Source of the DNA: Thiomargarita sp.
GTDB taxonomy: Bacteria > Pseudomonadota > Gammaproteobacteria > Beggiatoales > Beggiatoaceae
Direction: 5' to 3'
Length of the DNA stretch: 43,735 nucleotides
NCBI GenBank assembly: GCA_020720115.1
Contig: DYPD01000018.1
Coordinates: forward strand, 1-43,735
Shown here: positions 1,792 through 29,100 of the stretch, one piece after another
Layout of the letters: every line of letters begins with the position of its first letter
Position numbering within the stretch: the first letter of the stretch is position 1
The notes under the pieces: model-generated
Databases searched by the model: none
What the model was told of the DNA's origin: nothing
What the model saw: only the letters and a program-made list of their open reading frames with translations
Made by a program: the position numbers and the translations under genes

Positions 1792-3582
1792 TTAGTAGCC
1801 TTGAATCCGAAATTCGATACGTCTATTGCGCGCACGTCCAGCGAGTGTTGCATTATCTGCAATAGGATGTGCTTTCCCATATCCAATGGATTTAAACTGT
1901 GTTGCAGAAAATCCATGATGAATTAAATAGTTTTTCACCGCATCAGCACGTTGCTGACTGAGTTGCAAATTTTTATCCGGGTTACCAATATTATCTGTGT
2001 ACCCGGCAATAGTAATCTTAGCTTTTGGGCAACTTTGCATGACGGCAATTAATTCATTTAACAAAGCATAACTGCTGCCTTTAATGATTGCACTGTTTGA
2101 ATCAAACTCAATATTATTTTTTTCCAATAAGGTATTGAATTTGGCTTGGCATAAACGCTCTTGACTATCAGCCGCATAAACATAAAGCTGCAAAAGATAA
2201 TTGTATTTTAACAATTGAGCAGGTAATTTCTGTAAAGCATTGGCGGTTTCTGTGGTGGCGACAGTGCCAGTTAGACGTATTTCATAATTGCTGATTTCTA
2301 ATCGCCCCTGTTCAAACTTTTGTAAAGCGGGGAGCAATAAGTTAATCGCTTGCAACCAATGCGCGGGTTCACCGGAAGCCAGAGTTATGCCTTCTTCTAC
2401 AAAACCCTTATTACCGAATAACTTTCTGGTGCTGGTAATGAGTGTTTGGCGGTCTTCTAATCTTGGAACATAGCCTGATACATGCAGGATTTGTCGTTGA
2501 TAATCAGCGATAAAAGTATAAGGATTGACGCGCTGAAGTGGTTGTTTTTCATCTGCTGCATTTAGGTATAAATAGAGTTGATAGTGCTGGTTTTTTAGGC
2601 TGGCTAGGGCTTGTGTTACTTGTTCTAATTGCGGTGTTGTTTGTGTTACACCAACTAGGCGTATAGTGTAATTGATGATTTCTAAGCGAATGCTTTGAAA
2701 CTGGTTGAGTTGTTCCAACATGAGCAAAAGCATGGGTTGCCAGGCATCGGGTGCGCCAGACGCTAATTGTAATTGTATTTCTGGCGAAGCTTGAGTAAAT
2801 AAATCGGCAAGCTTTGTTTCTATTAATTGTTGAGTTTGAGCATCAGCTACATAGCCAGTGACCTGTAGCCTGTTGTTTTGATAGTTAAGCGTAAAGCTGT
2901 AGGGACTTTGTATGGGTAATTCTTCTGCAACCTGTAAGTAAAGATAGGGAACATAATGATAGTTTTGCAAGGTTTTGAATTGTTGTTTAAGTTGTTCTGC
3001 AATAACTTCTGTTTCTACTACGCCACTCAAGCGTACATCATAATTCACTATTTCTAAACGCGCATCCTGCACTTGCGGTAATTGCGCAAAAATCAGGTTC
3101 AATGCGGTGTGCCAGTCACTCGGTTCTCCAGCCGCTAATGCTAAGGTGTTTTCTATGTGGTATTGCGCAAAGTGCTGTTGTAGTTTTTCTTGCAATGCTT
3201 GGCGATATTGTTCATCTGGTGCATAGCCGGTGAGGTGTATCTGTTGGTTGTGTAATTCTAAGTTTAAGCGATAGGGTGTTATGCGTTCTAGTTGAACTTT
3301 AATCTGGTTGTTCAGTTGACGGATGCCGTGTATCTCGGCTATGAGGTGGATAACTTGGTTGTAGCTTTGGCTATTGCTGGCAGTGCCTTCTAAAGTTACA
3401 TCGCGCCCGGTCACTGACACTTCAACCCAATTCATATCTTGTGCTTGTAAGGTCTGTTGGATTTCTTGCTTGAGTTTAATTTCAATCCGCTGTGCTAAGT
3501 AGGGTACATAATCTAGCAAACCAATAGCGGATAAAACAAATATCAGCGATACTAGGATAAGGTCTTTAAGTTTATGCGGCAT
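1792..3582 (-). CDS. Membrane-anchored repeat protein with OmpA peptidoglycan-binding C-terminus
   Basis: This is a 596-residue envelope protein. An N-terminal hydrophobic segment (about 7-27) anchors it. A BON-like segment follows (about 37-100). Three similar units of roughly 125 residues come next (about 100-222, 223-350, 351-475), each with a strand ending in TGY or SGY, an ASGEP-like turn before a Trp, and an RLEIxNYxIRLxG block. The C-terminus (about 485-596) is a typical OmpA domain with NIEFDS, YTDNIG, LSQQRADAV and NRRIEFRI, known to bind diaminopimelate in peptidoglycan. The design recalls BON-OmpA proteins such as mycobacterial ArfA but with extra repeats. It probably links the inner membrane to the cell wall. 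It lies 26 bp downstream of the MscS gene. Confidence 0.8.
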   Translation of the reverse strand: MPHKLKDLILVSLIFVLSAIGLLDYVPYLAQRIEIKLKQEIQQTLQAQDMNWVEVSVTGRDVTLEGTASNSQSYNQVIHLIAEIHGIRQLNNQIKVQLERITPYRLNLELHNQQIHLTGYAPDEQYRQALQEKLQQHFAQYHIENTLALAAGEPSDWHTALNLIFAQLPQVQDARLEIVNYDVRLSGVVETEVIAEQLKQQFKTLQNYHYVPYLYLQVAEELPIQSPYSFTLNYQNNRLQVTGYVADAQTQQLIETKLADLFTQASPEIQLQLASGAPDAWQPMLLLMLEQLNQFQSIRLEIINYTIRLVGVTQTTPQLEQVTQALASLKNQHYQLYLYLNAADEKQPLQRVNPYTFIADYQRQILHVSGYVPRLEDRQTLITSTRKLFGNKGFVEEGITLASGEPAHWLQAINLLLPALQKFEQGRLEISNYEIRLTGTVATTETANALQKLPAQLLKYNYLLQLYVYAADSQERLCQAKFNTLLEKNNIEFDSNSAIIKGSSYALLNELIAVMQSCPKAKITIAGYTDNIGNPDKNLQLSQQRADAVKNYLIHHGFSATQFKSIGYGKAHPIADNATLAGRARNRRIEFRIQGY

Positions 3583-14948: not shown

Positions 14949-16334
14949 CTATTTGAGTAAAACTGGCAATTGGGCATATTGGCGGATAATTTGCCCTAAT
15001 GCCTGTCGCCAATGATCATTATGCGGGATTTTTTCTGCGTGCAAAGACAGCCCAGAAACCTCATAAAATGGCTTATAAGGCTCTGGTATATAAGGGTTTT
15101 TACTTTGCCATACATAGGTATATCCAGCCTCGATCCAATCGGCAATGAGCACATTTTGTAAGCGCACTAACAGCACCACTTCCTGTGCATTGCCCTCAAT
15201 GTGGCTTTGCACGGCATAAGCGCCTTGAATATCTTGCCGCGTTGCCAGGGTTTGTGCGGCAGTTTCACCGCACACCAGCCAAGCCGCATCAAACAACCCG
15301 CGCTTTTGGTAATGCGCCCAAAATTCTTGGCGAATGCGCCAATTCGAGCTGGGTTGCTGCTGTTCTGTGAGTTGGAAAAACGCTTCTAACAGGCTATCGC
15401 TGAGCCAATAATGCAGAATGCGCAACGCGGGCGTGCGCACGTCTTGCCAAGGCGCTTCCACTTGCCCCGGATGCCCGATGCGTTGCACTAAAAAAATCTG
15501 GAGCGCTTCGCGCAAAGCGGGCGGCGGTGCGCTTTGCAACCAAGGCAGCAAGAGCGTGTGCAGCAACTCTCGGCGACACGCAGGATAGCGCAGTTGTTCG
15601 CCGTCTAAACTCCAGCGGAAAAAATTAGGCAACAGCGGGATGACTTCTAACGGCTGCCGGTGCAAGCCCTTATCCAGCATTTTTAAGGCTTCCAGGTAGG
15701 CGCTCTGCGCAAACCCGGCATTGCGTAACTCGCCGCGCAATCCGGCATCATCCAACACCTCTAGCGCCTCTTTAAGCAAGCAGGTTTGTGCCAACTTGCC
15801 GGCAATGTCTTGCAGACTGAACAATTGGTAGCGTTGCTGACTGATTTTCCAGCGATATAGCAGCGAAGAAGGTAAGGCTTTTTCCACATGCTGGCGCAAA
15901 AATTCTGCGACCTGTGCGACATTGGGTTTATGTTCGGAAAAGTCGCGTAAATAAATGTAAATCAAGCGTTTAACCGCAGCTTCATCGCCGCTTAACTGTT
16001 CCAGCAAACGCGGCAGAAAACCCCGCTGAATGGCGGGCATATGAATTTTTTTGCCATACCAAAGCACCCAAGGCGCTCGCCGCCAATCCTGCCAAGCCAC
16101 ATCATGCCAGCTATCGGTAGCAAAGGCATGACCAAAACGCTTGTATAAATTCTGTAACTCCTCCTCGTCTGGCATGACGGGCGGTACATCAGGATAGCGG
16201 CAGGCATTCGCAGTTTCGCTCAAGCGCGGCACGGGAAACCGCACTTGCGCCAAGTATTTGGCGCTACGCAAGCTGCTTTGACATTGTTCTCGTAGGGACA
16301 TAGGTTCATTAAGGTGGCTAACAAGTGGATTCAT
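14949..16334 (-). CDS. EH_Signature-domain-like protein (ZorC-like), orphan
   Basis: This soluble protein of up to 461 residues (450 if it starts at the Met at 16301; neither start has a clear Shine-Dalgarno) has no signal peptide or membrane helix. Segments recall the EH_Signature family: DWRRAPWVLW (about 81-90), RLIYIYLRDF (about 120), RQEFWAHYQKRGLFDAAW (about 343), VVLLVRLQNVLIADWIEAG (about 390) and a late H-x2-W (NDHW). In Zorya anti-phage systems such a protein, ZorC, works with the ZorA/ZorB motor and the ZorD helicase. None of these is next door: neighbours are pdxH and, divergently, a PhnD-like lipoprotein. The family call is from remembered motifs. It could be an unrelated helical protein. 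Confidence 0.6.
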   Translation of the reverse strand: MNPLVSHLNEPMSLREQCQSSLRSAKYLAQVRFPVPRLSETANACRYPDVPPVMPDEEELQNLYKRFGHAFATDSWHDVAWQDWRRAPWVLWYGKKIHMPAIQRGFLPRLLEQLSGDEAAVKRLIYIYLRDFSEHKPNVAQVAEFLRQHVEKALPSSLLYRWKISQQRYQLFSLQDIAGKLAQTCLLKEALEVLDDAGLRGELRNAGFAQSAYLEALKMLDKGLHRQPLEVIPLLPNFFRWSLDGEQLRYPACRRELLHTLLLPWLQSAPPPALREALQIFLVQRIGHPGQVEAPWQDVRTPALRILHYWLSDSLLEAFFQLTEQQQPSSNWRIRQEFWAHYQKRGLFDAAWLVCGETAAQTLATRQDIQGAYAVQSHIEGNAQEVVLLVRLQNVLIADWIEAGYTYVWQSKNPYIPEPYKPFYEVSGLSLHAEKIPHNDHWRQALGQIIRQYAQLPVLLK

Positions 16335-16397: not shown

Positions 16398-17300
16398 ATG
16401 CAAGCTTTTTCCCGTTTAGTTTATCTTGTGTTTTACCTGCTGCTGTCAATGATTGCTGGTTGTGGGCAAAATCCCGCGCCAGGTGCCGCCAACAAACCTG
16501 CGGGTGCTTGGGATAAGGAATTGTTTTTCGGTGTGATTCCGATTGAATCAGAAGCCCGTACTCGTGAGCGTTATGCACGTTTTATGGGGTATCTTGAACA
16601 ACGTCTGGGCAGCCAAATTACCCTGGTGGTACCGCAAGATTATGCGGGTGTGATTGACGGCTTGGCGCAGAAAAAGCTGCATTTTGCCTTGTTGGGACCC
16701 AAATCCTATGTAGAAGCCTCAAAACGCGCCAAGATCGTGAGTGCGGTGCGTATGCTGGGCATGGAAGGGGAAAACGGCTACAAAGGCATCATTATCACAC
16801 TGAAGACATCCGGGCTAAACAACCTCAGCGATCTCAAAGGCAAAAGTTGGGCTTTTACTGACCAAAATTCTACCAGTGGCAATTTGATTCCCAGCGTGTA
16901 TTTTGCCGCCGAAGCGCAGATTGATCCCACAAGTTATTTTTCCAAAGTGGTGTTTTCTGGTAACCACGAAAAATCCATTTTAATGGTGAAAAACGGCGAA
17001 ATTGATGCCGCCGCCACCAACAATGTAGACCTTGCCCGCGATTCTGGGCGTAACTGGCATCAAGAAGATTTCAACATTATTTGGGAATCTCAATTAATTC
17101 CGCATGATACCTTGGTTTATCAGCGCGATATTGCAACCGAATTGCAGCAAGCCTTTATACAAGCGGCGTTAGCTTATGACGACGCCGAAGGCTTAAAAGA
17201 CATGGCGATTTCTAAATTCATTCCTTCACAAGATGAAGATTATGTCTTTGTGCGCCAATTAGAAGCGTTCCGAGAAACCATGCAGAAATCTGCTCAATAA
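16398..17300 (+). CDS. PhnD-like periplasmic-binding lipoprotein
   Basis: From the ATG at 16398 (GAGG seven bases upstream) the protein has 300 residues and a lipoprotein signal with lipobox IAGC. The body matches the phosphate/phosphonate-binding PhnD group: FFGVIPIESEARTRERYARF, LHFALLGPKSYV and DLKGKSWAFTDQNSTSGNLIP. These proteins normally feed an ABC permease, but none is nearby. Its TAA overlaps the ATG of a membrane phosphatase (TAATG), indicating translational coupling. It therefore probably acts as a ligand sensor for that phosphatase. The ligand is unknown; the PhnD fold also binds other oxyanions. Confidence 0.88.
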   Translation: MQAFSRLVYLVFYLLLSMIAGCGQNPAPGAANKPAGAWDKELFFGVIPIESEARTRERYARFMGYLEQRLGSQITLVVPQDYAGVIDGLAQKKLHFALLGPKSYVEASKRAKIVSAVRMLGMEGENGYKGIIITLKTSGLNNLSDLKGKSWAFTDQNSTSGNLIPSVYFAAEAQIDPTSYFSKVVFSGNHEKSILMVKNGEIDAAATNNVDLARDSGRNWHQEDFNIIWESQLIPHDTLVYQRDIATELQQAFIQAALAYDDAEGLKDMAISKFIPSQDEDYVFVRQLEAFRETMQKSAQ

Positions 17301-19438
17301 TGATGTCTCCCTTGCGTTACCTTTATAGCCGCTTGAGTCTGCGCACCGCATTAACAGTGCCTTTTTTGCTGTTGATTCTGTTGGGCTTGGGCGTAACTGG
17401 CTGGCTGTCGCTGCAAAACAGCGAACGCGCCATTAACGAGGTAACGTTGCAATTGCGCCAAGAAATAGGCACGCGCATTCAAGAACACTTAGACCATTAT
17501 CTGCATATTCCTAAAATCACTAATCAACATACTATCAGTGAGCTACAAGAAAATCTGATTGATTTCACCCTACCGCAAGGCATCCAACAGCACATTATTC
17601 ATCAATTACTCTCTTATCCACAGATGAGTCACATCCAAATTGGCACAACCAAGGGCGAAATGATCGGCGTTGAACGCGGGCAAGACGGGTTTTTCCGCTT
17701 GGAAATAGCCAATCCTTCCACCGAGTTCAACCTGTACGTCTACAAAGTGGATACGCAGACTAAACTCATGCAGAAAAAACCCTTGCGCGTGGTGCCCAAT
17801 TACGATCCACGCAGCCTGGATTGGTATCAGCAAACTGCCGCACAGCAGACTTCTCGGTGGCTCATTCAATCGGGAAAATCACAATGGAGCCAAGTGTTTA
17901 ACTTTTTAGGGCACACCTGGTTGGCGCTCAGTTACAGCACCCCGATAGTCTCCGAATCAGGCGAATTGCAAGCCGTTATTTCTTCCGGCGTAGTGCTGGA
18001 TAAAGTCAGCAAATTTTTACAAAGCTTGCGCATTGGCAAATCTGGGCAAACCTTTATCTTAGAGCGCAACGGCACTTTGGTAGCGACTTCAACCCAAGAA
18101 AAGCTGTATGAATTGGATTTAGAAACCCTGCAAGCCAAGCGTTTTTCTGCCCAACAAAGCGGTAGTCCACTGATTCAGTCAGCCTATGCCTTTTTGTTGC
18201 AGCAATTTGGCAATTTAGACACATTGCAACATGCACAAAGCCTGGATTTCAAGCTCGCCGGAGAACGCCAGTTTTTACAAATTTTACCTTATAAAACAGC
18301 AGGTTTAGATTGGTTAATTGCAGTTTCGGTACCCGAAGCGGATTATCTGGAAAAAATCAATGAAAACAAAAAAATAACTTTAATTTTTATGGTATTAACT
18401 TCAATTATTGCAGGTTTAATCGGTATTTTGTTAGTCAACTGGCTCACGCGCCCGTTGCGTACCTTAAATCACGCCGCACAAAAACTCACCGCAGGTGAAT
18501 GGGAATATGAATTTGAAAGCCATCATCGGCAAGATGAATTAGGACAGCTTTCACGCGCTTTTCAATTGATGGTAGAACAACTCAAAGATTTGTTTAGCAA
18601 CCTAGAAGCAAAAGTTGCTGAACGCACCACTGAATTAGAAAAAGCCAATGAAGAAATCCGTTCTTTGAATGATTATTTGCAAGCAGACAATGTGCGCATG
18701 ATGGCAGAATTGGATGTCACGCGACAATTTCAAAGCATGATTCTACCGCGTAAAGAAGAACTCGCCGCCATTACCGAACTGGATATTGCCGGCTTTATGG
18801 AACCCGCAGAAGAAGTCGGCGGCGATTATTACGACGTACTGCGTTATGGCGATACGATAAAAATTGCTATCGGTGACGTTACCGGACATGGTTTAGCCAG
18901 CGGCATGTTGATGCTCATGGTGCAAACCGCAATCCGCACCCTATACGCCAGCGATATGTATGATCCCGAAACCTGTCTGATTACTTTAAACAAGGCAATC
19001 TACGACAATTTGCAACGTATGCAATCAGATAAAAACCTGACTTTAACTATCATTGATTATCGCCAAGGGCGCGTAACCATCAGTGGACAGCATGAAGAAG
19101 TGCTGTTAGTGCGTAGCAATGGTGAAGTTGAGCGCATTGATACCCTGGATTTGGGCTATCCGGTGGGCATTTTGCCCTGCATCGAAAGTCTGGTTGCGCA
19201 TAAAAATCTGCATATTAACAGCGGCGATGGTTTGGTGTTGTACACCGACGGCATCACCGAAGCCATGAATGCACAGGGCACGTTGTACGGCGTGGAACGC
19301 CTCTGCACCCTAGTCAGTCAGTATTGGCAAGCACCCGCGCAACAAATCCAGCAGGCAATCATCCGTGATCTAAAAACCTATGCGCTGGGCAGCACTTACC
19401 ACGATGACTTGACGCTGGTCGTGATGAAGCGGGTGTGA
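17300..19438 (+). CDS. Membrane sensor SpoIIE-type (PP2C) serine phosphatase with HAMP domain
   Basis: A 712-residue protein with TM1 at about 16-36, a periplasmic Cache-like sensor (about 40-350), TM2 (about 358-380), HAMP (380-432), a coiled coil (433-480) and a C-terminal PP2C/SpoIIE phosphatase. Metal ligands are visible as Asp509 (GGDYYD), Asp526 (GDVTGHG), Asp650 (YTDGITEA) and Asp702-703 (HDDLTLVV). Such enzymes dephosphorylate a Ser/Thr-phosphorylated STAS antagonist; the design parallels Pseudomonas SiaA. A STAS protein and a GHKL kinase-like protein are encoded 0.8-1.7 kb away on the other strand. Overlap with the PhnD-like lipoprotein gene suggests that it supplies the input signal. 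Confidence 0.9.
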   Translation: MMSPLRYLYSRLSLRTALTVPFLLLILLGLGVTGWLSLQNSERAINEVTLQLRQEIGTRIQEHLDHYLHIPKITNQHTISELQENLIDFTLPQGIQQHIIHQLLSYPQMSHIQIGTTKGEMIGVERGQDGFFRLEIANPSTEFNLYVYKVDTQTKLMQKKPLRVVPNYDPRSLDWYQQTAAQQTSRWLIQSGKSQWSQVFNFLGHTWLALSYSTPIVSESGELQAVISSGVVLDKVSKFLQSLRIGKSGQTFILERNGTLVATSTQEKLYELDLETLQAKRFSAQQSGSPLIQSAYAFLLQQFGNLDTLQHAQSLDFKLAGERQFLQILPYKTAGLDWLIAVSVPEADYLEKINENKKITLIFMVLTSIIAGLIGILLVNWLTRPLRTLNHAAQKLTAGEWEYEFESHHRQDELGQLSRAFQLMVEQLKDLFSNLEAKVAERTTELEKANEEIRSLNDYLQADNVRMMAELDVTRQFQSMILPRKEELAAITELDIAGFMEPAEEVGGDYYDVLRYGDTIKIAIGDVTGHGLASGMLMLMVQTAIRTLYASDMYDPETCLITLNKAIYDNLQRMQSDKNLTLTIIDYRQGRVTISGQHEEVLLVRSNGEVERIDTLDLGYPVGILPCIESLVAHKNLHINSGDGLVLYTDGITEAMNAQGTLYGVERLCTLVSQYWQAPAQQIQQAIIRDLKTYALGSTYHDDLTLVVMKRV

Positions 19439-19444
19439 GGCGGA

Positions 19445-20071
19445 TTAATCGGCAATTTTCCCGCGCCCCAATACATACACTTCGCGCGATTGCGAACGTG
19501 AGGCTTTAGGTTTGCGGATCAATAGGTTAGCGAATGCTGGGCGAAGCACGCGCAGATACTCATCAAAGCCCTCGCCCTGAAACAGCTTGCATAAAAAATT
19601 CCCGCCTGGTTTGAGCAATTCCAGCGCCGCATCGCGGGCTAACTCCGCCAATAACATGGCTCGCGGCTGATCCACTGCTTTCACGCCCGAACTATTCGGC
19701 GCTAGATCAGACATCACTAAATCCACCGCTTGACCCGCTAAAGCCGTGCGCAATTCCTCCAGCACCGCCAGTTCAGTGAAATCCCCTTGAATAAACCGCA
19801 CTTCAGGCAACGCATCCATCGGCAAAATATCCAGCGCGATAATCTGCGCTCTGCCATCCAAGCGTTTTTGCGCCCACTGCGACCAACCGCCAGGCGCCGC
19901 GCCCAAATCTACAATGCGCATTCCTGGCTTAAACAGCCGGTCACGTTGTTCAATTTCTTCGAGTTTATACACAGCACGGGAACGAAAGCCTTCTTTTTGT
20001 GCGCGCTGCACATAGGGATCGCTGGCTTGGCGTTGAAGCCAACGGGTACTGCTGTGACTGCGTTTTCTCAT
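19445..20071 (-). CDS. rlmE: 23S rRNA 2'-O-methyltransferase RlmE (RrmJ/FtsJ)
   Basis: RlmE methylates the 2'-OH of U2552 in the 23S rRNA A-loop. Starting at MRKRSHSS (20071) the protein has 208 residues, as in E. coli. The frame extends to 20152 through the terminator hairpin, which argues against the longer form. The K-D-K-E catalytic tetrad is visible in RSRAVYKLEEIE, MSDLAPN, LCKLFQG and SREVYVLG; the SAM-binding motif is VDLGAAPGGWSQWA. It lies between the two halves of the signalling circuit and converges on the phosphatase gene, 6 bp apart. In many bacteria ftsH follows; here it does not. Confidence 0.95.
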   Translation of the reverse strand: MRKRSHSSTRWLQRQASDPYVQRAQKEGFRSRAVYKLEEIEQRDRLFKPGMRIVDLGAAPGGWSQWAQKRLDGRAQIIALDILPMDALPEVRFIQGDFTELAVLEELRTALAGQAVDLVMSDLAPNSSGVKAVDQPRAMLLAELARDAALELLKPGGNFLCKLFQGEGFDEYLRVLRPAFANLLIRKPKASRSQSREVYVLGRGKIAD

Positions 20072-20107
20072 AAAATATCGCCAACCTAAATGAATTGTAT
20101 AATAAAA

Positions 20108-20140
20108 AAACCTGGCAGGTTGTGCAAACCTGCCAGGTTT
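20108..20140. terminator. Terminator hairpin / dispersed palindromic repeat
   Basis: AAACCTGGCAGGT (20108-20120) and ACCTGCCAGGTTT (20128-20140) form a perfect 13-bp stem with a 7-base loop. Read on the minus strand a run of seven T follows, so it should end the kinase-STAS transcript; it lies 64 bp past the STAS stop. Each arm is itself nearly palindromic (AACCTG/CAGGTT), and a degenerate copy occurs at 42814-42826. This suggests that a dispersed repeat was recruited as terminator. Confidence 0.8.
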
Positions 20141-20203
20141 TATAGTGCCCAAACAGCAACTAAATATATTTCCGCTATAGGTTTTTGTAGAATCCCCAGG
20201 TGT

Positions 20204-20548
20204 TTATTGCTCAACAGCCAGCAAATCAGGCATAAGACGCTGTAGATTGCTGACCAATTTCATTTGCCAGGCTTGTTCGGCAGCATAATGAATGCTTAAT
20301 TGTGGGGTCTTTTGATTGCGTACTAGAATGACGAATTTCGTCATAGTGTTGATACCAGAACTATTAATAAAATCTAAGTTACAGATATTCAAAGTCAAGC
20401 TATCTGACACCTGTTCACTGGCTTGTTTTAATAATTCCAAGATGGGTAGATATTCTTCTGTGCCCGCTAACATTAACGAACCTTGGCAAGTAATTTCTTG
20501 CTTTATCTCATTAAAAGAGACGCAGTAACCTTCTTGGTTAATTTCCAT
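20204..20548 (-). CDS. STAS-domain anti-sigma-antagonist-like protein (slr1659-type)
   Basis: Starting at 20548 (Shine-Dalgarno AGGAGA) the protein has 114 residues; the longer frame to 20584 would overlap the upstream gene by 14 bp. The fold-typical segment ITCQGSLML, the strand SLTLNICNLDFINSSGINTM with the expected phosphorylatable Ser pair, and the helix TKFVILV mark a STAS domain. Such proteins switch partners according to phosphorylation by a GHKL kinase and dephosphorylation by a SpoIIE phosphatase. Both enzyme types are encoded here, the kinase-like gene 22 bp upstream and the phosphatase beyond rlmE. Similarity to the cyanobacterial slr1659 group is recalled, not computed. Confidence 0.85.
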   Translation of the reverse strand: MEINQEGYCVSFNEIKQEITCQGSLMLAGTEEYLPILELLKQASEQVSDSLTLNICNLDFINSSGINTMTKFVILVRNQKTPQLSIHYAAEQAWQMKLVSNLQRLMPDLLAVEQ

Positions 20549-20570
20549 AGATATTTTTTCTCCTGATAAC

Positions 20571-21173
20571 TTATACATCAACACAAACCATTGTGGTTAC
20601 AACGGAGACGGGTTTGCCGTCGGTGCTGTCGCCGTCAAGTGACGCATCAAATTTCCACGCCAGCTTTGCCGAATAATCGCAATTCATGCTGAGAAACCCC
20701 AAACCAGACGCGGTGCTCTCAGGGTCTAAAGCGTTGGCTTCCATTTGTTCGATATACAAAGCATTGGCATCACAACTGAGCAATTTACGGATATAGATTT
20801 GAAATTTTTCTCTATTAACCGCACTGATGCTGTTGGTGACATAGAAAATCAAGCGTTCTTCATGCAGATAAAATGAAATGCGGGTTGAATAACGAGCGGA
20901 TTCATCGCTAAATTTCATCGCATTTTCTAACAATTCATTAGCAATATATTTGGTGGCATTATGGCTATGTGCTGGGATCGTTTCTCCGTTGCGCAACGCG
21001 TTACCGCGCCGCCCAACAAAAAAAGTTTGCAGGTAGCCAGCAATAAAATCAGCAGATAAGCCTTTGTTTTTCCAGCGTTGTTTTAAAGGCAAAGAAGCAC
21101 TGGAAAAGCCCACAATGAGGTATTCAACTTCATCTTTTTGCGGTTCAATGAAATCTCCAAAAATTTCAGCCAT
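20571..21173 (-). CDS. GHKL (anti-sigma/SiaB-like) serine-kinase-type protein
   Basis: This 200-residue soluble protein has an ATPase N-box, NATKYIANELLENAMKFSDE (about 92-111), and a glycine-rich ATP-lid motif ASGLGFLSM (about 154-162), as in HATPase_c anti-sigma kinases. No HisKA region is present. Size and motifs resemble the SiaB/DUF6272 and slr1658 groups, which phosphorylate a small partner protein on Ser or Thr. It is operonic with the STAS protein, so it should be that protein's kinase, opposed by the membrane phosphatase at 17300-19438. The ultimate target (sigma factor, cyclase or other) is not in the window. Confidence 0.8.
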   Translation of the reverse strand: MAEIFGDFIEPQKDEVEYLIVGFSSASLPLKQRWKNKGLSADFIAGYLQTFFVGRRGNALRNGETIPAHSHNATKYIANELLENAMKFSDESARYSTRISFYLHEERLIFYVTNSISAVNREKFQIYIRKLLSCDANALYIEQMEANALDPESTASGLGFLSMNCDYSAKLAWKFDASLDGDSTDGKPVSVVTTMVCVDV

Positions 21174-24286: not shown

Positions 24287-26224
24287 TTAGGTTTCTACAA
24301 AATACATACTCATTTCACCCTTGCCTTTCACTGCAAGAGCGCCGCGTGCTTGAATAGGAAATTGATCTTTCACTAAATCATAGGTTGTTTGTGAAATATT
24401 AATGCGCATAGGCTCAGAGTTTGATTCCATCCGCGAAGCGGTATTAATGGTATCGCCAAATACATCATAAATATATTTTTTCACGCCTACCACGCCGCCT
24501 ACCACTTTACCCGAATGAATACCAATACGAATGCGCCATTGAATTTCAGAACGCTTATTGCGCTCCTGCATATAATGAATAATTTCTATTGCTGAACGCA
24601 CCATATTATGCGCATGATGCGGATTAGGCGTCGGCATACCACACACGCATAAATAAGCATCACCAATGGTTTTTACCCGTTCACATTGATGGTGTTCAAC
24701 AATATTGTCAAAGGCGGTGAAAATATCATTCAATTCATCAATCAAGAACTTAGGTTCTAGCTGCGATGATAAATTAGTAAAACCTACCACATCAGAAAAA
24801 TAAACAGTTACTTCCTCAAAGGATTCTGGTTCAGTTTTGCCGGTTTCTTTCAAATCATTTGCCACCCGTACCGGCAAAATATTGAGCAATAACTGATCAG
24901 ATTTTTCTTTTTCCTGACGAATCAAGTTATTGGCTTCTTCAAGTTTTTGATTGGCTTTTTTCTCAAAGCGATAACGATTAAAGAGCACAAATACCAGGAT
25001 AAAAATAAACAACAAGCCGCCCATTAACGAATTGCGCAATAAAGTTTGCTTAACAATGGCTAATTGTTGGATTTCATTATCCTTTTTAAGCAAGGTGATT
25101 TCCTGCTCTTTTTTCTCGGTTTCATATTTTGTTTGTACATCAGCAATCGCTTGCTGGCTTTTTTCATTCAAAATGCTGTCTTTTACTTCGGTAGACAGGC
25201 GATAATAGGCTAATGCAGCTTCAAAGTTATTTTGTGCGGCGTATAATTGAGAAAACAATTCATAGTTTTCTCGGATTAAATCTTTGGAATCCGCTTCTAC
25301 TGCCTGTTGCAAGCCGCGAATCAAATACACCACTGCCTGGTCAAAGTTTTTTTTCAAAATATATAAGGCTGCAATATTATTAGAGATATTGGCTACCTCA
25401 TACTTATCACTTAAGCGCTCACGCATTTTTAAGGCAGATTCAAAATACCTCAGTGCTTCATCATATTGCTCTAAGCCTTTGTACGTTAAGCCTACATTGT
25501 TTAAGGATTTAGCAATCCCTTGTTCATCATGGATAGCACGGCGGATTTTTAAGGATTCTACATAATTTTCTAAGGCTTCTTTGTATTGTCCAGAAAAATA
25601 ATGAATAATACCGATATTGTTCAGAGAATCAGCAATGCCGGCTTGATCATTTAACTTTTGCCGAATAGCCAGCGCACGATGGTGGTGTTCTAGTGCAACC
25701 GTATAATTACCCAACAAGTCATTAATAATACCCAATTGATGTAGGGAAGAAGCAATGAGGGAATCATCTTGCAAATGCTCTGCGAGTTTTAAGGCATCCA
25801 AGCACTTGCTCAATGCCTTATCATAATCCCCCATGCGCCAATACACATTGCCCAGAGCTAACAGGGTTTTAGCTATACGCGGCTGGTTTTCCTGTGCTGT
25901 CCAGAGTTCTAAAGCGTGCTGATAGGGCAACAAAGCTTCAGCAAAATTGCCCTTCTGGGTTTTTAAGCGCCCCAACATCACCAAGGCTTCAGCCGCGTTG
26001 AGGTTATCTTCGGCTTGTTCTGCAAGCTGTTGTGCTTGCTCGGCATAAGTCATGGATTGCAGCGGATCATTAAATTGCGTAACACGAGCCAGGTTAAGTA
26101 GAATTGGCGGCTTTTCTGGAGGGCTGGCACTAGCAAGCTGGGCTTGCAGGGCTTCAATGGAGTCGTCAGCACGCACTGACAAACTGAAACCGCACACAGC
26201 AAGGATAAAGAGATAACGTAGCAT
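24287..26224 (-). CDS. TPR-repeat class III adenylate cyclase
   Basis: Starting at 26224 (signal peptide MLRYLFILAVCG) the protein has 645 residues. A periplasmic region carries about seven tetratricopeptide repeats (about 60-380), several nearly consensus (NNIGIIHYFSGQYKEALENY). One transmembrane helix (about 415-435) and a coiled coil lead to a cytoplasmic class III cyclase domain. The metal Asp lies in YFSDVVGFTN. The purine-specifying pair is Lys (VKTIGDAYL) and Asp (YDVFGDTIN), and the catalytic Asn/Arg lie in NTASRMES. The Lys/Asp pair predicts ATP, giving cAMP. A receiver-only protein is encoded 230 bp upstream in the same direction. Confidence 0.9.
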   Translation of the reverse strand: MLRYLFILAVCGFSLSVRADDSIEALQAQLASASPPEKPPILLNLARVTQFNDPLQSMTYAEQAQQLAEQAEDNLNAAEALVMLGRLKTQKGNFAEALLPYQHALELWTAQENQPRIAKTLLALGNVYWRMGDYDKALSKCLDALKLAEHLQDDSLIASSLHQLGIINDLLGNYTVALEHHHRALAIRQKLNDQAGIADSLNNIGIIHYFSGQYKEALENYVESLKIRRAIHDEQGIAKSLNNVGLTYKGLEQYDEALRYFESALKMRERLSDKYEVANISNNIAALYILKKNFDQAVVYLIRGLQQAVEADSKDLIRENYELFSQLYAAQNNFEAALAYYRLSTEVKDSILNEKSQQAIADVQTKYETEKKEQEITLLKKDNEIQQLAIVKQTLLRNSLMGGLLFIFILVFVLFNRYRFEKKANQKLEEANNLIRQEKEKSDQLLLNILPVRVANDLKETGKTEPESFEEVTVYFSDVVGFTNLSSQLEPKFLIDELNDIFTAFDNIVEHHQCERVKTIGDAYLCVCGMPTPNPHHAHNMVRSAIEIIHYMQERNKRSEIQWRIRIGIHSGKVVGGVVGVKKYIYDVFGDTINTASRMESNSEPMRINISQTTYDLVKDQFPIQARGALAVKGKGEMSMYFVET

Positions 26225-26454
26225 AAGGCTTGATGCGATCCGTGAGTCGTCAATCGAGTCTACTAATGAAGGCATTGGGTCTAACTCAGCAGCGCCTTGG
26301 AAAAGCTATTATAAACATTTGTCTGAGGGCTTTATAACAATAACTCTCATGGCCATTCCAAAAAACTTAAGGGAAAATCCCTGTGTTTATTATTTGACTA
26401 ACGGGTATTACGCCGCCGCTTTAAGCACCTGTACACTTCAGCAATAGCCTTAAG

Positions 26455-27885: not shown

Positions 27886-29100
27886 CTACCCTCGGCGTGT
27901 ATCCAAGGCTTCGCGCAGGGCTTCGCCGATAAAAATCAATAAAATCAAAGTACCTACCAGCACGCTGAAAGTGGTGACGGATAGCCACCAGGCTTCAATG
28001 TTGGCTTTACCCTGTGCCAGTAATTCACCCAAGCTGGGCGTGGTGGGGGGTACGCCTAAACCTAAATAATCCAGGCTGGTCAAGGCGATAATAGAACCAC
28101 TGATGCGAAACGGCAGAAAAGTCAACACCGGCGCTAAACCGTTTGGCAGCAGATGCCGCCACATGATGCGAAAATCTGAGACACCCAAGGCGCGAGCGGC
28201 TTTGACATACTCTAGGTTGCGTCCGCGTAAAAATTCTGCACGCACATAATCAGATAAGCCCATCCAGCCAAATAATGACAATAAAATCAATAATAAAGCC
28301 AGGCTTGGATTGAAAATAGAAGCGAAAATAATGAGTAAATAGAGTTCGGGCAAGGCGCTCCACAGCTCGATAAAACGCTGCATGAATAAATCAAAACGCC
28401 CGCCGAAATAGCCCTGTAGCGCACCCGCCGCAATCCCCACCAGCGTGCCAATCAGTGTGAGCACAAAAGCAAACAATACCGATAGACGAAAGCCGTACAG
28501 CAACCGCGCCAGCACGTCGCGCCCGCGATCATCAGTGCCGAGGAAGTTGTCTGCCGACGGCGGTGCGGGATTGGGCTGCTCGCTGTGGTAGTTAATGCTG
28601 TTGTAGCTATAAGGATTAGGCGCATACCAGACCCAGTTCCCTGATGCTTGCAGTTTTTCTTTCAAATACAAATCGTTATAGTCCGCTTCTGTATCAAAAT
28701 CACCGCCAAACGCGGTTTCTGGGTAAGTGCGCCACAGCGGATAGTAGTAAGCGCCCTGGTAATAAACCAGCAGGGGTTTGTCATTGCTTAACACCTCAGC
28801 AAAGAGGCTAATGCTAAACAGGATGCCGAATAGCCACAGGCTGAAATAGCCGCGTTTGTTGGCTTTGAAGCGCCGCCAACTGCGCTGTGCGGGTGTGAGC
28901 GGTGTGCTGCGCTTGTCAAGCGATGGACTGAGCCTGTCGTCAAAGTGCGGTGCGCTGAGCTTGTCGTCAAAGCGCGGTGCGCTGAGCTTGTCGTCAAAGC
29001 GCGGTGCGCTGAGCTTGTCGTCAAAGCGCGGTGCGCTGAGCCTGTCGTCAAAGCGCGGTGCGCTGAGCTTGTCGAAGCGTGGGGCTGGAGTATGCGGCAT
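27886..29100 (-). CDS. yejE: YejE-type ABC peptide/microcin transporter permease with repeated N-terminus
   Basis: This 404-residue inner-membrane permease has about six transmembrane helices and the BPD_transp motif in EYVKAARALGVSDFRIMWRHLLPN. NFLGTDDRGRDVLARLLYGFRLS and the large periplasmic insert (about 100-180) identify the YejE/OppC C-type permease of the YejABEF system. That system needs YejA, YejB and YejF, none of which is in the window. Residues 1-60 are not permease-like: they are 9-residue repeats (SAPRFDDKL and variants) encoded by 27-bp DNA repeats. A true start near residue 65 cannot be excluded. The gene follows exbB by 20 bp. Confidence 0.88.
   Translation of the reverse strand: MPHTPAPRFDKLSAPRFDDRLSAPRFDDKLSAPRFDDKLSAPRFDDKLSAPHFDDRLSPSLDKRSTPLTPAQRSWRRFKANKRGYFSLWLFGILFSISLFAEVLSNDKPLLVYYQGAYYYPLWRTYPETAFGGDFDTEADYNDLYLKEKLQASGNWVWYAPNPYSYNSINYHSEQPNPAPPSADNFLGTDDRGRDVLARLLYGFRLSVLFAFVLTLIGTLVGIAAGALQGYFGGRFDLFMQRFIELWSALPELYLLIIFASIFNPSLALLLILLSLFGWMGLSDYVRAEFLRGRNLEYVKAARALGVSDFRIMWRHLLPNGLAPVLTFLPFRISGSIIALTSLDYLGLGVPPTTPSLGELLAQGKANIEAWWLSVTTFSVLVGTLILLIFIGEALREALDTRRG
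28928..29079. repeat. 27-bp tandem repeat in the 5' end of yejE
   Basis: Five full units (28928-28954, 28955-28981, 28982-29008, 29009-29035, 29036-29062) plus a partial sixth (29063-29079) share the core CTGAGCTTGTCG, differing at one to three positions. The last partial unit contains CTGAGCTTGTCGAAGCG, a form that recurs as a dispersed repeat in many bacterial genomes by recollection. Because 27 is a multiple of three the yejE frame stays open. Confidence 0.9.

Follow-up and report, generated by a model that had tools for sequence, protein, structure and literature searches.

Can a periplasmic binding protein gate partner switching in Thiomargarita? The question is raised by a stretch of 43,735 nucleotides from a Thiomargarita sp. 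genome (contig DYPD01000018.1; the whole stretch is hereafter called the window), in which genes coding for a PhnD-like lipoprotein, a membrane SpoIIE phosphatase, a STAS protein, and a GHKL-like protein lie between positions 16398 and 21173. An earlier note, made from the letters of the window, had proposed these four genes as a candidate circuit; all four are present, each family assignment holds, and the proposed circuit is borne out in part. We consider it moderately probable that they form two adjacent signalling units, a SpoIIE phosphatase gated by the PhnD-like protein and acting on a STAS protein of the slr1659 family, and a free-standing kinase-STAS pair of the slr1658 and slr1659 families. 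It is plausible that the target of this phosphatase is the STAS protein of the window itself.

The first unit is encoded on the + strand. It starts with the gene of the PhnD-like periplasmic lipoprotein, a predicted ligand-binding sensor of 300 amino acids (aa) (16398-17300; PF12974, E value 3e-64), whose stop codon shares one base with the start codon of the next gene (TAATG). The latter (17300-19438) codes for a membrane phosphatase of 712 aa with a dCache-HAMP-SpoIIE architecture, assigned by Pfam: the SpoIIE domain (PF07228, 2.9e-36) scored 125.6 bits against a cut-off of 25, the HAMP domain matched at 1.2e-12, and the dCache domain (7e-12) scored 45.8 bits for a cut-off of 45. The metal-site motifs GGDYYD, GDVTGHG, TDG, and HDD, whose residues matter in SpoIIE phosphatases, are all present. 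A match of residues 10-439 of the phosphatase to GepA was rejected as a clue to cyclic di-GMP (c-di-GMP) turnover, because it spans only the sensor-HAMP part, which also matches other large open reading frames (ORFs), three of which, in this genome, are 34 to 38% identical.

The conservation of this gene pair was analyzed in 42 genomes of the order, all belonging to one family. Orthologs of the PhnD-like protein were found in seven other genomes, with 42 to 66% identity, the next matches being at most 37% identical. A SpoIIE gene lies directly downstream of the ortholog in six of the eight genomes, window included; in the other five (G034, G005, G035, G004, and G014), the phosphatase is 45 to 67% identical to that of the window over nearly its full length, sensor included, and the intergenic gaps range from −1 to 177 bp. 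The closest of these, the full-length relative in G034 (67%), is paired in the same manner. Thus, the PhnD-SpoIIE pair is a conserved, real unit.

PhnD-like proteins have several types of partner in this order, SpoIIE among them, and most are encoded next to signalling genes. We drew this from a census of PF12974 matches of at least about 90 bits, performed with crude models of our own; window sequences or neighbouring ones served as seeds for all our own models, which miss divergent members. Omission of 11 matches inside large ORFs reduced the 85 places to 74 ORFs, for which the next gene on the same strand within 400 bp codes for a histidine kinase in 30 cases, a SpoIIE protein in 14, a GGDEF/EAL protein in two, another PhnD-like protein in two, and other proteins in 11, with no such gene in 15 cases. 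Two further PhnD-like genes of this genome (L062 13-3889 and L063 6755-10566) are each directly followed by a hybrid histidine kinase gene. On contig C44 of the same genome (L061 5923-12229), some 4 kb separates a PhnD-like gene from a SpoIIE gene on the other strand. In the same-genus genome G001, the nearest relative of this SpoIIE gene stands immediately after a PhnD-like gene (L275 4903-7253), and the C44 genes are perhaps a broken-up pair.

What might the sensor bind? The PhnD-like protein has a hydrophobic signal stretch and an IAGC lipobox, as read by eye. It scored above the cut-off of TIGR01098 (227.3 bits against 112.05) and below that of the PhnD equivalog family TIGR03431 (247.8 against 261.1 bits). 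With a profile of the eight orthologs, the nearest solved structures were those of Escherichia coli PhnD (3p7i, 1.1e-51) and PtxB (4.8e-46), and AioX matched at 1.6e-10. We compared ligand-contact residues, taken from the excerpted paper on AioX and from the structure-profile alignment, some PhnD residue numbers being derived via a construct offset. All nine contact positions of E. coli PhnD are kept in the window protein, Glu177 as Asp; Y47, S68, Y93, S127, T128, and S129 are retained in all eight orthologs and H157 in seven. The acidic residues E177 and D205, which in the excerpted account make the amine contacts of PhnD with the positive end of its ligand, are Asp/Asp in the proteins of the window, G034, and G002, and in the remaining five at least one of them is non-acidic, so that three of eight orthologs keep the pair. 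As the pair is kept in these three only, the pocket suggests a phosphonate-type ligand for the window protein and perhaps a different one for the remaining orthologs. The description of the protein as an oxyanion-type sensor can be narrowed to a phosphonate/phosphite-type sensor. Arsenic sensing of the AioX type was ruled out by the weak AioX match and by the lack of the pocket cysteine, Cys106 of AioX; the sole cysteine of the window protein is that of the lipobox.

Alternatively, the protein may be a moonlighting uptake receptor, or a leftover one, serving a transporter elsewhere, its link to SpoIIE being only transcriptional. Its closest relatives outside the order among the matches listed, 46% identical and found in Poseidonibacter and in Sulfurimonas and Arcobacter metagenome-assembled genomes, are encoded directly after an ATP-binding cassette (ABC) ATPase gene and before a gene coding for 285 to 299 aa, as in uptake operons. 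However, no PhnE permease was found over the cut-off in the whole genome, which is 99.49% complete (best score, 25.3 bits against 216.7), in line with the absence of a transporter claimed in the earlier note, and in the order an ABC ATPase gene follows none of the 74 PhnD-like ORFs while signalling genes follow 46. We regard a role in uptake as very improbable. Since the closest outside relatives among those listed adjoin an ABC ATPase gene, the sensor was likely recruited from uptake systems. None of the 80 loci listed in a wide contig scan, in 61 of which our model recognised a PhnD ORF, matched the window-seeded models of SpoIIE or slr1658/slr1659.

The second unit comprises two genes on the − strand (21173 to 20204) and is convergent with the SpoIIE gene, from which it is separated by the unrelated gene rlmE. 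The STAS and GHKL-like genes are close to the phosphatase gene, as the earlier note had it, but they form a unit of their own on the opposite strand. The upstream gene (20571-21173) codes for a GHKL-like candidate Ser/Thr kinase of 200 aa that belongs to the slr1658 family (NF052618, 210.9 bits for a cut-off of 200; NF047703, 197.4 bits for a cut-off of 100), and the downstream gene codes for a STAS switch protein of the slr1659 family (NF047705 slr1659_superfam, 123.6 bits for a cut-off of 100). The STAS ORF spans 20204-20584 from a GTG codon at 20584, and the family alignment favours the ATG at 20548 as its start. Alignments were made with 22 of 26 slr1658 and 21 of 24 slr1659 sequences drawn from 24 chosen loci. 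They revealed an invariant NELLENAMK motif in all 22 rows of the former, and in all 21 rows of the latter N74, S75, S76, and I78 of an N-S-S-[GA]-I site are invariant, which makes Ser75 in NSSG the predicted phosphoacceptor. A profile search of the PDB returned nothing for slr1658 at E values up to 1 and five weak matches for slr1659, the best being to a non-STAS protein (0.059) and the best STAS protein following at 0.15. AlphaFold2 models of single sequences were uninformative (mean pLDDT of 48.5 for the STAS protein and 44.6 for the kinase).

Such pairs are widespread in the order, with slr1658 over the cut-off in 33 of the 42 genomes and a same-strand SpoIIE gene within 1.5 kb of 24 of 86 slr1658 genes (89 before three short ORFs were dropped). 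This genome contains four slr1658 and five slr1659 domains in four pair loci. On contig C10, the gene order is SpoIIE-slr1658-slr1659-histidine kinase. Contig C128 has a SpoIIE gene, the product of which looks response-regulator-like at its N terminus by eye, followed by slr1658, tandem slr1659, and histidine kinase genes. Contig C31 carries slr1658-slr1659-PAS-GGDEF-EAL and no SpoIIE gene.

Does a PhnD-gated phosphatase act on slr1659-type proteins? Two observations argue that it probably does. The first is the gene set of genome G003, in which PhnD, SpoIIE, slr1658, slr1659, and histidine kinase genes follow one another on the same strand, 10 to 61 bp apart, as one apparent operon. The full kinase/phosphatase/antagonist set proposed for the window thus exists in G003, together with a histidine kinase; the proposal overlooked the output, which in the window is not adjacent. 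The second is a tree of 47 SpoIIE domains, which leaves out three rows on long branches (L162, L163) present in a first, 42-row tree. It contains a group of 13 with support values of 82/81, composed of six long PhnD-coupled SpoIIEs including that of the window, five short ones, that of G003, and that of contig C44 of this genome; two of the five short ones are identical (loci L276 and L278 of G035), possibly an assembly duplicate. As drawn, this group joins seven SpoIIEs of slr1658 operons and two others (joint support, 91/78). Because the phosphatase of the G003 operon groups with most PhnD-coupled SpoIIEs, PhnD-gated partner switching is credible as a circuit type. The PhnD-coupled SpoIIEs might instead act on other STAS proteins or other phosphoproteins: the SpoIIE family is large here, with 15 copies of which most are not near slr1658, and other STAS-like ORFs exist (e.g., L058 13477-13794, by eye). 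Both the gene set of G003 and the tree above speak against such targets, which we regard as unlikely.

Is the slr1659 protein of the window then the partner of the window phosphatase? This genome offers four candidate loci, that of the window being one. The SpoIIE gene lies 0.77 kb from the pair; in simulations, the probability that one named SpoIIE gene lies so close to any of the four pairs was about 0.006, and that for any of 13 SpoIIE genes near either of the two pairs that come without their own phosphatase was about 0.037. Taken alone, this proximity is weak evidence for a shared circuit. The modules may also be independent, the PhnD-gated SpoIIE serving another STAS protein, e.g., that of C31, and the window pair answering to another phosphatase. 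The C31 locus combines a kinase with a GGDEF-EAL output on a contig that has no SpoIIE, this genome has 15 SpoIIE genes for four pairs, and the co-location of the window units is not conserved; they are on opposite strands, and a terminator-like hairpin is present (20141-20107, − strand; a 15-pair stem and a T-rich tail, 3′ of the STAS gene, between the STAS-kinase unit and rlmE). What speaks against this arrangement is the nominally unlikely distance, together with the fact that SpoIIE genes adjoin pairs elsewhere in this genome only at C10 and C128. We rate independence as a serious possibility that falls a little short of an even chance.

The comparison among genomes bears on the same issue. 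Rarity of the four genes together had been named in advance as grounds for giving up the single circuit, and the full set is indeed rare: PhnD and slr1658 are at most 10 kb apart in two of 42 genomes, those of the window and G003, among the matches listed (the PhnD coordinates listed stop at about 27 bits, and short contigs are among those compared). The four window genes are therefore not borne out as one unit, and a conserved four-gene locus was rejected on this count and on the separate location of their orthologs in G001. The distance between PhnD and slr1658 is 13 kb in G016 and 31 kb in G004. All eight PhnD-ortholog genomes have slr1658 over the cut-off, compared with the 33 of 42 overall (p of about 0.12 by our own arithmetic).

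Several observations count against joining the units as we favour. They are convergent, with rlmE between them, and among the matches listed slr1658 lies within 10 kb of PhnD in none of the seven other ortholog genomes, although a nearby slr1658 gene is not excluded for the two with short PhnD contigs (G034, 7.7 kb; G013, 16 kb). The same-genus genome G001 has the orthologs of the window pair (76 and 65% identical) elsewhere, without this PhnD-like protein (best identity, 31%), and its rlmE gene (80% identical) is in other surroundings, in a region that holds neither unit. The G003 PhnD-like protein is only 27 to 28% identical to that of the window, and this genome has three other slr1659 loci. 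Two of the eight PhnD orthologs have no SpoIIE gene found beside them: in G002 the gene that follows has the opposite orientation, and the 342 bp left before the contig end in G013 show no SpoIIE start. Three of the eight short PhnD-associated SpoIIEs (L272, L273, and L317) fall outside the group of 13, the first tree left the window phosphatase unjoined to the group, and tree supports are moderate. Finally, no gene for a stalked output of the kind described below lies beside the window pair.

For the two units as we read them, the following mechanism can be envisioned. The PhnD-like lipoprotein would bind a phosphonate-, phosphite-, or phosphate-type ligand in the periplasm and dock on the dCache domain of the phosphatase, and HAMP would relay the change to the cytoplasmic SpoIIE activity. 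SpoIIE would strip the phosphate from the conserved NSSG serine of a slr1659-type STAS protein, to which the slr1658-type kinase would add it. The unphosphorylated STAS protein would then probably bind the coiled-coil stalks of output proteins, in the manner of SiaC on SiaD.

Candidates for such outputs are encoded near slr1658. Of 88 slr1658 genes, 36 have a gene for a protein with a conserved coiled coil (LEIxLExxTEHAD) no more than 3.5 kb away (e.g., L058 9339-10580, L059 9807-12014, L060 2524-4608, and L074 10885-11877), and in the four cassette proteins tested this coil precedes HisKA/HATPase (three) or PAS-GGDEF-EAL (one). A profile built from 20 of 22 proteins of slr1658 neighbourhoods detected 74 stalk proteins in 27 of the 42 genomes, 25 of which have at least two copies of the motif. 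Among the 54 outside the profile, 18 are encoded no farther than 3.5 kb from slr1658 (16 of 52 if the two left over from the 22 are set aside), for a chance expectation well under 1% by our own rough arithmetic, some of them being close relatives of the 20 in the profile. From this distribution, we propose the coil as the docking site of slr1659 proteins. In this genome, the sole stalk match away from the other three cassettes is a weak one (31.9 bits), on contig C119. It belongs to a small protein (L343 4160-4690) that ends with a LuxR-type DNA-binding domain (GerE, 6.2e-21) and is a possible transcriptional output; the contig has no slr1658 match. Near the window pair, a gene on the − strand (24287-26275) codes for a TPR protein with an adenylate/guanylate cyclase domain (PF00211, 2.3e-61), a possible output that a motif scan for the stalk did not support.

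Binding proteins are known to take part in signalling: the LuxP-LuxQ, TorT-TorS, NspS-MbaA, and HptA-HptS pairs have histidine kinases or c-di-GMP enzymes as outputs and not SpoIIE phosphatases. RsbU of Chlamydia has a periplasmic ligand domain, and we know of no binding-protein partner for it. The published accounts used for the comparisons that follow were available as excerpts. They describe LuxP and TorT as periplasmic binding proteins acting in signal transduction, and in the AioX/ArxX/ArrX-histidine kinase systems a periplasmic protein of the PhnD fold is likewise the first signalling component and not a transporter; the partner there is a histidine kinase, as opposed to SpoIIE here, and the AioX pocket cysteine is absent here. 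Chlamydia RsbU/RsbV/RsbW likewise combine a sensor phosphatase, a kinase, and a STAS antagonist in a partner switch, of which the target is a sigma factor. The kinase and STAS protein of the window are members by curated cut-off of the families of Synechocystis slr1658/slr1659, where cells with a disrupted slr1658 gene recovered less well from iron limitation; the excerpted description mentions no phosphatase input, while in this order the 24 of 86 slr1658 genes noted above have a SpoIIE gene alongside. We found no mention of PhnD with SpoIIE, or of partner switching gated by a binding protein, in openly licensed full texts, which is not proof of absence.

A close parallel in working is SiaABCD of Pseudomonas aeruginosa, composed of the PP2C phosphatase SiaA, the kinase SiaB, the STAS-like SiaC, and the diguanylate cyclase SiaD. 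Common to both are a membrane phosphatase, a small kinase, a STAS-like switch carrying an N-[ST]-S site, and output proteins that have coiled-coil stalks. As described in the excerpts, SiaC is phosphorylated at T68, its N67-T68-S69 residues are required for binding to SiaD, and its binding sites on the SiaD stalk are two motifs. In slr1659, the invariant N-S-S is similar to N67-T68-S69 in the SiaC peptide LLYLNTSSIK, and the repeated stalk motif can be likened to the two SiaC-binding motifs, although its sequence is unlike the SiaD residues named there. The PhnD input is an addition here. Membership in the Sia families was rejected, all scores being below the cut-offs (SiaB, NF038262, 21.6 against 85 bits; SiaC, PF09345, 16.8 against 24.5; SiaA, NF038263, 128.9 against 700). 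As SiaB and SiaC homology falls under the cut-off, we claim a likeness of working and not of family.

A more general picture can be put forward tentatively, as one to which we would not quite give an even chance. A SpoIIE lineage gated by transporter-free PhnD-type proteins, recruited from uptake systems, would sense extracellular phosphonate-like compounds and drive slr1658/slr1659 switching, with the STAS protein docking on the repeated stalk motif of varied outputs (histidine kinases, GGDEF-EAL proteins, and perhaps a LuxR-type regulator). The new element is the binding-protein input, partner switching itself being already known. If true, sensing by binding proteins would extend beyond histidine kinases and c-di-GMP enzymes and include Ser/Thr partner switching, and the little-studied slr1658/slr1659 families would gain a testable input, the phosphatase, and a testable output, the stalked proteins.

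The window has further features. Between the two units, rlmE (19445-20152, − strand) codes for an FtsJ methyltransferase (PF01728, 8.5e-56), the likely start of which is an ATG near 20071, as read by eye. Terminator-like sites number six in the region versus 6.3 in shuffled sequences, the hairpin at 20141-20107 having the longest stem, and promoter-like sites are not enriched (8 versus 9.2). Divergent from the PhnD gene, positions 14949-16334 (− strand) code for a ZorC-like EH_Signature protein (PADLOC ZorC1, 5.8e-64), the only strong Zorya match among the four window proteins tested; an OmpA/MotB-like protein (1792-3582) resembles ZorB weakly (3e-12). Farther downstream, a tandem repeat of 27 bp in 5.4 copies (28928-29074) codes for repeated LSAPRFDDK near the start of a permease-like ORF (27886-29100).

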